DNA of 64,000 nt, from NCBI GenBank assembly GCA_019753375.1, contig JAIELC010000011.1, positions 74,096 through 138,095 on the forward strand, in the 5' to 3' direction. Of the stretch, positions 5,811 to 42,707 are shown piece after piece. Positions within the stretch are counted from its first letter, which is position 1. Each line of letters begins with the position of its first letter. Source of the DNA: Sphingomonas sp. GTDB lineage: Bacteria > Pseudomonadota > Alphaproteobacteria > Sphingomonadales > Sphingomonadaceae. The notes below the pieces were generated by a model. That model saw only the letters and a program-made list of their open reading frames with translations, made no database searches and was not told the DNA's origin. The position numbers were made by a program, and so were the translations under genes.

Positions 5811-7307
5811 ATGAGCCTGGCCCCGCGCCTCGACCTGCGGCAGTCGCAATCCCTGGTGATGACGCCGCAACTCCAGCAGGCAATTCGCCTGCTGGCGCTG
5901 TCAAATCTGGAAGTCGAAGCGTTCATCGCTGAGGAAATTGAAAAAAACCCCCTGCTCGAGACCGGCGCGCCAGAGGACGATAGCCCCATCGCCGAACCCG
6001 ATTCGCCTCCTGCGCCGCGCGACGAGCCGGCCAGCGCGGATGAGCTGATCATGGGCGCCGGCGAAAGCGGTGAAGCCGCGCTTGATGTCGATTTTTCGGC
6101 AGAGACCTTTCATCATGATAGTGCCGCGGATTCGGGCGGCATGGACGGTACGCTGGGGTTGAATGGCGCTGCGGGCAGCGCCGCGAGCGAGGATGGCCCT
6201 GATTTTGACAGCTTTGCCGATACCGGCCTGACCCTGGCAGACCATCTGCTGGCCCAGGCCGGCACGGCGGTATCGGGCGCCGACATGTTTATCGCCGCGC
6301 ATCTGATCGACCAGATCGATGACTGTGGCTATTTGACCGCTCCACTGATTGAAATCGCTGGTCGTCTGGGCGTGCCGCTGGCGCGAGTCGAGTCAATCCT
6401 TGCGATTATCCAGACCTTTGATCCAACCGGGGTCGGCGCGCGCGATCTGGCCGAATGCCTGGCCCTGCAAGCCAAGGAGGCGGATCGTTACGACCCCTGC
6501 ATGGCGCGGCTGATCGATAATCTTGATCTGCTGGCTCGGGGCGACATTGCCCGATTGAAGCGGCTCTGCGGCGTCGATGACGAAGACATGGCCGACATGA
6601 TCCGCGAACTGCGCCACTATGATCCCAAGCCCGGCTGCCGTTATGGCGGCGAGCCCGCGCAGCCCGTGGTGCCCGACATCTATGTTGCCCGGCGCAAGGA
6701 TGGCTGGGCGATCGAGATCAATTCGGCAACGCTGCCACGTCTGCTGGTGAACCGCAGCTATTACGCCGAGCTATCCACGGGGCCGCAAAACAAGGCATCA
6801 AAGGCATGGCTGACCGAGTGCCTGGCGAGCGCCAACTGGCTGGTCAAAGCGCTTGATCAGCGCCAGCGGACGATCATCCGGGTGGCCACTGAAATCGTCA
6901 AACAACAAGAAGCCTTTTTCCTGTACGGTGTCGCGCATCTCAAGCCCATGACGCTACGTCAGGTTGCGGACGTGATCGAGATGCACGAATCCACCGTTAG
7001 TCGCGTGACCAGCAACAAATATCTGATGTGCGAACGCGGGCTTTATGAACTGAAATACTTCTTCACATCCGCCATTCAGGCATCGGACGGTGGCGATGCC
7101 GTGTCGGCAGAAGCGGTCAAGAATGCGATCAGGACATTGATCGCGGCGGAAGACGCCGGGGCCATTCTGTCCGATGACACGCTGGTCGATTTGCTGAAAG
7201 AAAAGGGATTCGACATTGCGCGGCGCACAGTGGCCAAATATCGCGAAGCGCTGGGCATTGGCAGCAGCGTCCAGCGGCGCCGGCAAAAGACGCTCGAAGG
7301 AGCCTGA
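5811..7307 (+). CDS. rpoN: RNA polymerase sigma-54 factor
   Basis: 498 aa; N-terminal QSQSLVMTPQLQQAIRLLALSNLEVEAFIAEEIEKNPLLE and RpoN box-like ARRTVAKYREALGI. Confidence 0.96.
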   Translation: MSLAPRLDLRQSQSLVMTPQLQQAIRLLALSNLEVEAFIAEEIEKNPLLETGAPEDDSPIAEPDSPPAPRDEPASADELIMGAGESGEAALDVDFSAETFHHDSAADSGGMDGTLGLNGAAGSAASEDGPDFDSFADTGLTLADHLLAQAGTAVSGADMFIAAHLIDQIDDCGYLTAPLIEIAGRLGVPLARVESILAIIQTFDPTGVGARDLAECLALQAKEADRYDPCMARLIDNLDLLARGDIARLKRLCGVDDEDMADMIRELRHYDPKPGCRYGGEPAQPVVPDIYVARRKDGWAIEINSATLPRLLVNRSYYAELSTGPQNKASKAWLTECLASANWLVKALDQRQRTIIRVATEIVKQQEAFFLYGVAHLKPMTLRQVADVIEMHESTVSRVTSNKYLMCERGLYELKYFFTSAIQASDGGDAVSAEAVKNAIRTLIAAEDAGAILSDDTLVDLLKEKGFDIARRTVAKYREALGIGSSVQRRRQKTLEGA

Positions 7308-40809: not shown

Positions 40810-40941
40810 TCCGCCCAGCCGGGGCGCGCAACCGGGTAATGATGCCTCTGGACATGCGCCCAATTGGCGGGTTTGTTCGCCTAGCCGGGCGTCAGTGTCG
40901 CCCGTTGATGGGGAGGCAACGTGAGGCGGGCTGGGGCAGCG

Positions 40942-41937
40942 ATGACATTGCTGGACGATAAGGTGATGGAGATATTCGATAAGGTTGGAGCCTTTCTTAC
41001 CGAACACCGGTTGGGAGCGGATCCGGTCAATTACGAATTTGCCTATCGGGTTGTGACCACGCCGGATGGTCCGGTCGCCGCCGCGGTACGCGCCATGACC
41101 GAGGGCGGCATTCGTCTGACCCGGAAAGACATTGTCGCCCTGGGCGGAGAGGCCGCCCGCCCCGAGCCCGAAGTGCAAAACCGCGTCCTGCATGACACGC
41201 TGGTGGCGCGCACGCAGCTTCAGGTTGAGAGCTTTGCCGATCTGGTAAAATCGGTGCGCGCGGAAACAACCGACTTTGGCCGCGACCTATTGGCCAGCAG
41301 CGAGGCGATCCGACAGATCGACGGTAGCGTTGCGACCGAAGTCGTCAAGATAACGGGCGCGATGGTGGACCGGGTGCGCGCGACCGAAGATCGGCTGGAA
41401 GCCGCTACGCGGGAAGCGGCGGAACTGCGCCACCAACTGGAAGAAGCGCGCGATGATGCCCGCCGCGACCCACTCACCGGGTTGGCCAACCGCCGCGTGT
41501 TCGAAGAGGGGTTTGCGACCAACCTTGCATCGGGAATCCGGCAATGCGTTGCCATCTGTGACATTGATCGGTTCAAGCTGGTCAACGACAATTTCGGCCA
41601 TGCGGTTGGCGACCGGGTGTTGAAGGCAATCGGCGAAGTCCTTTCCGCGCAGTGCAGGGACCATATCGTCGCACGCTATGGCGGCGAAGAATTTGCCTTG
41701 CTGTTCACCGGCATTAGCGCTGACGAGGCTCGCGCGCTCATCGAAGAAGCGCGCGAGACGGTCGCTAACAAGCGGTACCGGTTACGCGAAACCGATGCGC
41801 CGCTGGGCGCGGTGACTTTCTCCGCTGGATTGACATGTGCCGCGGCGGGCGAGCAGCTCGATACAGCATTTGAACGCGCAGATCAGCTTTTGTACCAAGC
41901 GAAAACCAATGGCCGCAATCAGATCATGCATGATTGA
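40942..41937 (+). CDS. GGDEF domain diguanylate cyclase
   Basis: DPLTGLANRRVFEEGF...DIDRFKLVNDNFGHAVGDRVLKAIGEVL...VARYGGEEFALLF; GGEEF active site. An upstream GTG at 40921 is possible. Confidence 0.93.
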   Translation: MTLLDDKVMEIFDKVGAFLTEHRLGADPVNYEFAYRVVTTPDGPVAAAVRAMTEGGIRLTRKDIVALGGEAARPEPEVQNRVLHDTLVARTQLQVESFADLVKSVRAETTDFGRDLLASSEAIRQIDGSVATEVVKITGAMVDRVRATEDRLEAATREAAELRHQLEEARDDARRDPLTGLANRRVFEEGFATNLASGIRQCVAICDIDRFKLVNDNFGHAVGDRVLKAIGEVLSAQCRDHIVARYGGEEFALLFTGISADEARALIEEARETVANKRYRLRETDAPLGAVTFSAGLTCAAAGEQLDTAFERADQLLYQAKTNGRNQIMHD

Positions 41938-42054
41938 GCAAGGGCCTGGTGTTTTTTACCACATTTCGGCAAAATTTCCGCGATAATGTGGTGTTATGAG
42001 CCATCCCGGCCGTAACGAAACCAAATTAACGTGTATATTCAGATACTTATAGAC

Positions 42055-42072
42055 TTGGCACGCTCCCTGCAA
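42055..42072 (+). promoter_or_regulatory. Predicted sigma-54 (-24/-12) promoter
   Basis: TTGGCACGCTCCCTGCAA: TGGCAC-N5-cTGCA, with 10 nt between the invariant GG and GC. Confidence 0.75.
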
Positions 42073-42129
42073 TCCTGTGGGCATCGCTGACCGGATCGTC
42101 CGCCAGCGCCACGAATAGGGAGATTGATC

Positions 42130-42240
42130 ATGTTTGTACGTTTTGAATCGCTGCCACGCATTGCCACGTCGCTCGTCATTTCGGCGATGTTTGCCAGCCT
42201 GATGCTGGGTGCCGCCACCTCAATCCTGCCGGTTGCATAA
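42130..42240 (+). CDS. Small hydrophobic protein 1 (36 aa)
   Basis: Shine-Dalgarno AGGGAGA upstream; MFVRFESLPRIATSLVISAMFASLMLGAATSILPVA. Confidence 0.6.
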   Translation: MFVRFESLPRIATSLVISAMFASLMLGAATSILPVA

Positions 42241-42250
42241 CCGGCAGGAT
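42223..42250. repeat. Perfect 12-bp inverted repeat spanning the stop of small ORF 1
   Basis: ATCCTGCCGGTT-GCAT-AACCGGCAGGAT. Confidence 0.9.
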
Positions 42251-42282
42251 CACCTGCTGCCGACATTCCCAGGAGCTTTCAA

Positions 42283-42387
42283 ATGACGCCGTTGAAATCC
42301 GTTGCCATCGGGCTGGTCGCCTTTGCCTTGACGACCGTCGCGCTGGTTAGCCAGGTAATGCTGTTCAACCCCGCCTTGGCTGGTTGA
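42283..42387 (+). CDS. Small hydrophobic protein 2 (34 aa)
   Basis: Shine-Dalgarno AGGAG upstream; MTPLKSVAIGLVAFALTTVALVSQVMLFNPALAG. Confidence 0.6.
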   Translation: MTPLKSVAIGLVAFALTTVALVSQVMLFNPALAG

Positions 42388-42394
42388 ACAGCAT
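42358..42394. repeat. Perfect 13-bp inverted repeat spanning the stop of small ORF 2
   Basis: ATGCTGTTCAACC-ccgccttggct-GGTTGAACAGCAT. Confidence 0.9.
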
Positions 42395-42584
42395 CGCATA
42401 ACGGCCTGATCGGCCGTGGCCGGCAATAGCGGCCGCCCCTGCAGCTGCCCCTCCCCCCGACCTGTGCCCCCGGCCTGTACCCCCGACCGCGAACCCAACT
42501 TATCCCCATGACGAATTGATGCAGTCGATTTGGCCGATCGGGCCTAAGAGAGCGTGAGCGTTCCGCTCTGCAGGGGATCCAGCC

Positions 42585-42707
42585 ATGGCCAAGGGCCAGA
42601 AGAAGTCGAACCGCGAAGTCCGCAAGCCCAAGGCCGAAAAGGTCAAGACCAACGCCGCCAACCCGTCGACCAAGGGCAATCCCGTCGGTATTGTTACCAT
42701 CAAATAG
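42585..42707 (+). CDS. Small basic protein (40 aa)
   Basis: Read from sequence: MAKGQKKSNREVRKPKAEKVKTNAANPSTKGNPVGIVTIK. Confidence 0.65.
   Translation: MAKGQKKSNREVRKPKAEKVKTNAANPSTKGNPVGIVTIK

Follow-up and report, generated by a model that had tools for sequence, protein, structure and literature searches.

A conserved sigma-54 promoter, probably activated by PspF, precedes a pair of predicted tiny membrane proteins in Sphingomonas

Within the window (the whole 64-kb stretch of Sphingomonas DNA analysed here), a GGDEF (diguanylate cyclase) gene is followed on the same strand by candidate enhancer dyads, a sigma-54 promoter, a leader with a predicted RNA hairpin and two small open reading frames, ORF1 and ORF2, each with one hydrophobic stretch and a net charge of +1 (Table 1). 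The window also contains rpoN, as an earlier note on this DNA had reported and as its domain matches confirm. A 40-amino-acid basic protein (MAKGQKKSNREVRKPKAEKVK...) is encoded downstream at 42585-42707 and is also found near ORF1 in two relatives (L097 and L104).

Table 1. Features of the locus and of the sigma-54 machinery in the window, with the basis for each.
Feature	Position	Strand	Basis or remark
rpoN	5811..7307	+	Sigma54_DBD 6e-66, CBD 6e-54, AID 2e-17
GGDEF (diguanylate cyclase) gene	40921..41937	+	directly upstream of the promoter region; Pfam GGDEF 4e-37
Best PspF-type enhancer dyad CTGGTGTTTTTTACCAC	41946..41962	+	-110; psp-matrix score 12.5
Weak dyad TCGGCAAAATTTCCGCG	41966..41982	+	-90 register of relatives; score -0.6; position only
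Dyad GTGGTGTTATGAGCCAT	41988..42004	+	-68 register; score 2.3; TGG-N9-CCA kept
Sigma-54 promoter TGGCACGCTCCCTGCA (very likely)	42056..42071	+	-24 element 42056-42062, -12 element 42068-42071
Expected transcription start	42082	+	GG at -25/-24, GC at -13/-12; from sigma-54 spacing
Predicted 5'-UTR hairpin	42085..42108	+	CGCTG/CAGCG outer, CGGA-TCG-TCCG inner; just after expected start; inner stem covaries in relatives
Ribosome-binding site AGGGAG of ORF1	42117..42122	+	sequence
ORF1, 36 aa MFVRFESLPRIATSLVISAMFASLMLGAATSILPVA	42130..42240	+	predicted single-span membrane peptide; profile in 144/151 genus genomes
ORF2, 34 aa MTPLKSVAIGLVAFALTTVALVSQVMLFNPALAG	42283..42387	+	predicted single-span membrane peptide; small ORF with ribosome-binding site after ORF1 in relatives

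The promoter reads TGGCACG-CTCCC-TGCA, a GG-N10-GC core with TGGCAC and TGC elements. The earlier note had placed TTGGCACGCTCCCTGCAA at 42055-42072, with one mismatch to TGGCAC-N5-TTGCA, a 10-nt gap between GG and GC and a distance of about 58 nt to the first small ORF's ATG, all of which we recovered exactly: GG lies at 42057-58 and GC at 42069-70, and the A at 42071 is separated from the ORF1 ATG at 42130 by 58 nt. Sigma-54 transcripts start approximately 12 nt after the GC, and this usual -12 spacing puts the predicted +1 at about 42082, in agreement with the position given in that note. A consensus search allowing up to two mismatches returned 23 matches in the window (three of them with one mismatch) against 24.0 expected; the consensus alone is thus at chance level, and the real evidence for a promoter is its conservation across relatives. 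The element proved to be kept where the ORFs occur, a point on which the earlier note had made its proposal depend: TGGCA-N7-TGC lies upstream of the ORF1 start in 69 of the 70 orthologous loci fetched, with a site-to-ATG distance of 50-62 nt (median 58, for loci with a clear start), and the sole exception (L145) has the site with a spacer 1 nt shorter. Across the 69 loci, T1-G2-G3-C4-A5 and T13-G14-C15 are invariant and three further columns nearly so (C6 in 67, G7 in 63 and A16 in 63), and in a DNA search of 61 genomes similarity to congeners starts at or near the -24 element. We therefore consider the sigma-54 promoter very likely to be real.

Orthologues of ORF1, usually single copy, were found by profile search in 144 of 151 Sphingomonas genomes, and the records with both the promoter and the leader core are named Sphingomonas, apart from one Hephaestia and two Sphingomonadales/Sphingomonadaceae assemblies. 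A few further genera of the family also encode ORF1-like proteins, and several of these loci retain the sigma-54 site, in most cases together with a dyad at -91/-92; no convincing homologue was found beyond the family. The GGDEF gene lies directly upstream of ORF1 in 67 of the 70 genus loci (by motif test) and was not detected beside the homologues of other genera; since the sigma-54 site is kept there, the promoter architecture does not require this neighbour. In many genomes (L012, L018, L019, L021, L023, L024 and others), a promoter of the TGGCACG...TGCA class is also found in front of a PII (glnB/K-like) gene.

In 51 of the 70 loci, ORF1 is followed by a second small ORF that has a ribosome-binding site; two of these match an unrelated downstream MAKGQ gene, and setting them aside leaves 49 as the fairer count. 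Neither protein matches a family of known function: Pfam gave no match for the window ORF1, one weak DUF4244 match among 30 ORF1 relatives and none for ORF2 (nine members searched), and no ORF1 member was matched in NCBIfam. For ORF1, pN/pS was 0.70 in frame, compared with 0.86 and 1.57 out of frame; for ORF2, it was 0.87 in frame, compared with 0.80 and 1.20. Neither comparison is decisive, and synonymous sites look saturated. The psp operons of the genus start with an ORF1-like small-protein leader (profile-profile E 5e-5, probability 68%, a modest level of support). With no family of known function to refer to, the role of ORF1 and ORF2 can be approached by analogy only, from which we infer that they act in a membrane-stress response.

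Between the expected start and the ribosome-binding site, the predicted hairpin has an inner stem that covaries across relatives, being paired in 85% of cells, compared with at most 50% for slid versions, and having 22 double-change cells, compared with at most 11. No relevant Rfam match was found. The psp leader of one relative (L008) has a similar GC-rich hairpin. The Shine-Dalgarno sequence also gave a seemingly significant pairing with bases immediately downstream of the -12 element, which was rejected, since those bases precede the expected start and an equal signal comes from the promoter spacer.

Which enhancer-binding protein might act at this promoter was assessed from the genome's own complement and from motifs shared with psp promoters. 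The genome encodes seven clear enhancer-binding proteins (NtrC-like, NtrX-like, two PrsR, a flagellar type, a receiver type and PspF), the PspF and PrsR names coming from NCBIfam (TIGR02974 for PspF, 478 bits against a cut-off of 444; TIGR02915 for the two PrsR) and the others from reading of the sequence. It carries a psp operon, with pspF divergent from pspA and its own TGGCACGCTTCCTGCG site; in one relative, a -24/-12 element identical to that of ORF1 precedes a small ORF and, after it, pspA, pspB and pspC, again with pspF divergent. As psp is nearly universal in the order, its co-occurrence with ORF1 is uninformative, and the enhancers carry the argument. Of 42 psp loci, 39 have a clear sigma-54 site, and 37 of these 39 have a dyad, mostly at -90 to -93. 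A 17-bp matrix built from psp-operon promoters only (TTGGCGTAATTTCCCAA) scored a median of 13.6 on the 70 ORF1 upstream regions, against -2.9 for dinucleotide shuffles; 63% of the regions exceeded the 99% shuffle level, 13% of the loci were not above the 95% level, and the best matches clustered at -90/-91 and -67/-69, approximately two helical turns apart. On 20 other sigma-54 promoters, mostly of glnB/K, the same matrix gave a median of -4.8, and not one of them scored above the 99% shuffle level. Because a psp-only matrix matches ORF1 loci in a fixed register while other sigma-54 promoters go unmatched, PspF, rather than PrsR, is probably the activator of the ORF1 promoter and is the best supported of the candidates. 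Two psp operons with a sigma-54 site (L174 and L175, in genomes G105 and G113) have no recognisable PspF dyad within 130 nt upstream.

A composite pattern, TGG-N9-CCA ... TGGCAC-N6-TGCA, was found in 137 of the 151 genomes (control matches numbered four in all), and the 30 matches fetched comprised 18 psp loci, 8 ORF1 loci and 4 loci of a third class of small secreted proteins; as this pattern was designed after inspection of these loci, it describes a regulon, and the psp matrix is the independent test. The window genome has one composite match, and the dyad in the -68 register fits the pattern. The window's enhancers are weaker than those of most relatives (12.5 at best, at -110, with degenerate -90 and -68 positions), and approximately six psp-matrix matches above 10 occur in the 64 kb, so that the best dyad is modest evidence on its own; the PspF assignment is accordingly stronger for the ORF1 family than for the window copy. 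The enhancer dyad at the psp operon of this genome is likewise degenerate (10.7-11.1). The genome also has a third-class gene whose -24/-12 site is accompanied by a dyad at -111 (score 17.2), in register with the window's best dyad, so that this lineage may be using the -110 register.

Three other accounts of the locus were weighed. A chance match, with the ORFs expressed from another promoter, would fit the chance-level frequency of consensus matches in the window, but is extremely improbable given a site with invariant core columns in 69 of 70 orthologues and the lack of any sigma-70-like site within 41800-42700. If the promoter is real, another enhancer-binding protein might activate it (PrsR, NtrC, NtrX, a flagellar FlbD/FleQ type or the receiver-type L046), all of these being present in the genome and the window enhancers matching the psp matrix weakly; we regard this as unlikely, since the psp enhancer is matched family-wide in a fixed register and is not matched at glnB/K and other sigma-54 promoters, although PrsR in particular is excluded only indirectly.

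The small ORFs might instead be a stress-induced, toxin-like pair in the manner of type I toxins, the structured leader controlling their translation. The sizes of the single-span peptides (30-36 aa), the covarying inner stem of the leader hairpin and a Shine-Dalgarno sequence partly paired in predicted folds speak for such a pair; however, almost all genomes of the genus have ORF1, as a rule in one copy, and the Shine-Dalgarno pairing signal is confounded by relatedness, a non-hairpin promoter spacer giving a similar one, so that we hold a toxin-like role to be very improbable.

Activation by PspF leads to a mechanism that we consider likely, in which ORF1 and ORF2, as tiny inner-membrane proteins, are encoded by a two-gene operon under a PspF-activated sigma-54 promoter. 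When the membrane is damaged or proton-motive force is lost, PspF would be freed from PspA, and PspF hexamers would bind the dyads some 50-110 bp ahead of the -24 element and remodel the sigma-54 RNA polymerase at the promoter, with transcription beginning near the expected start. PspG supports or tunes the Psp response in enterobacteria, and ORF1 and ORF2, once made and inserted in the inner membrane, would do the same. The earlier note had suggested induction by a specific stimulus, with envelope, exopolysaccharide or PrsK/PrsR-like signals as candidates; our results support sigma-54 control through a specific enhancer-binding protein and a stimulus from the envelope, but not the exopolysaccharide or PrsK/PrsR-like guess, as the dyads match psp.

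Members of the third class are small and secreted, carry a YC...C-x-[TS]...W motif and are encoded behind sigma-54 promoters of the same class (L022, L028, L033, L038, L223, L224, L243, L246 and, in the window's own genome, L279 on G000:C10); several copies, L279 included, also have a PspF-type dyad, and the class is a possible third arm of a PspF regulon. A palindrome of the ACTACAATTGTAGT type adjoins the PspF-type dyad in L155, L188, L189 and several third-class loci and is possibly the site of a second regulator. More broadly, we see an even chance that Sphingomonas has an enlarged phage-shock regulon of tiny unnamed proteins (the psp leader, ORF1-ORF2 and the secreted Cys/Trp proteins) under PspF-type enhancers and sigma-54, the peptides being membrane-repair effectors not known outside this lineage.

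Within the library of papers searched, none was found to describe the small-protein pair or its promoter, and Sphingomonas is absent from two Psp surveys (PMC11237479, PMC9239133). The analysis proposes which activator, signal and regulon go with a small-protein family that occurs in nearly every sequenced Sphingomonas and that the searched Pfam and NCBIfam libraries do not cover; it also suggests that the targets of PspF extend beyond psp and pspG.

Among known systems, sigma-54 regulation of the PrsK/PrsR (PEP-CTERM) kind resembles this one in that two PrsR-type activators are present in the genome, but differs in that the enhancer dyads match psp and the operon has no PEP-CTERM-type product. 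The leader proteins of the Sphingomonas psp operons are closer, sharing promoter class, enhancer, size, N-terminal pattern and a weak profile similarity with ORF1, although they are mostly longer (35-49 aa), have a GAVGPA motif and are encoded ahead of pspA, whereas ORF1 is unlinked. In E. coli, the PspF/sigma-54 regulon comprises pspABCDE plus the unlinked pspG (PMC9239133). The Sphingomonas arrangement is similar in having PspF divergent from pspA, sigma-54 promoters and what would be a second, unlinked target encoding small inner-membrane proteins; it departs from that of E. coli in that its products are single-span peptides of 34-36 aa that Pfam does not assign to a family, its operon is genus-wide and usually beside a GGDEF gene, and a third class of small secreted proteins has the same promoter. 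ORF1 and ORF2 have no Pfam match and are unrelated to PspG, but the pair would, as a second PspF target, take the position of E. coli pspG and may work like it.
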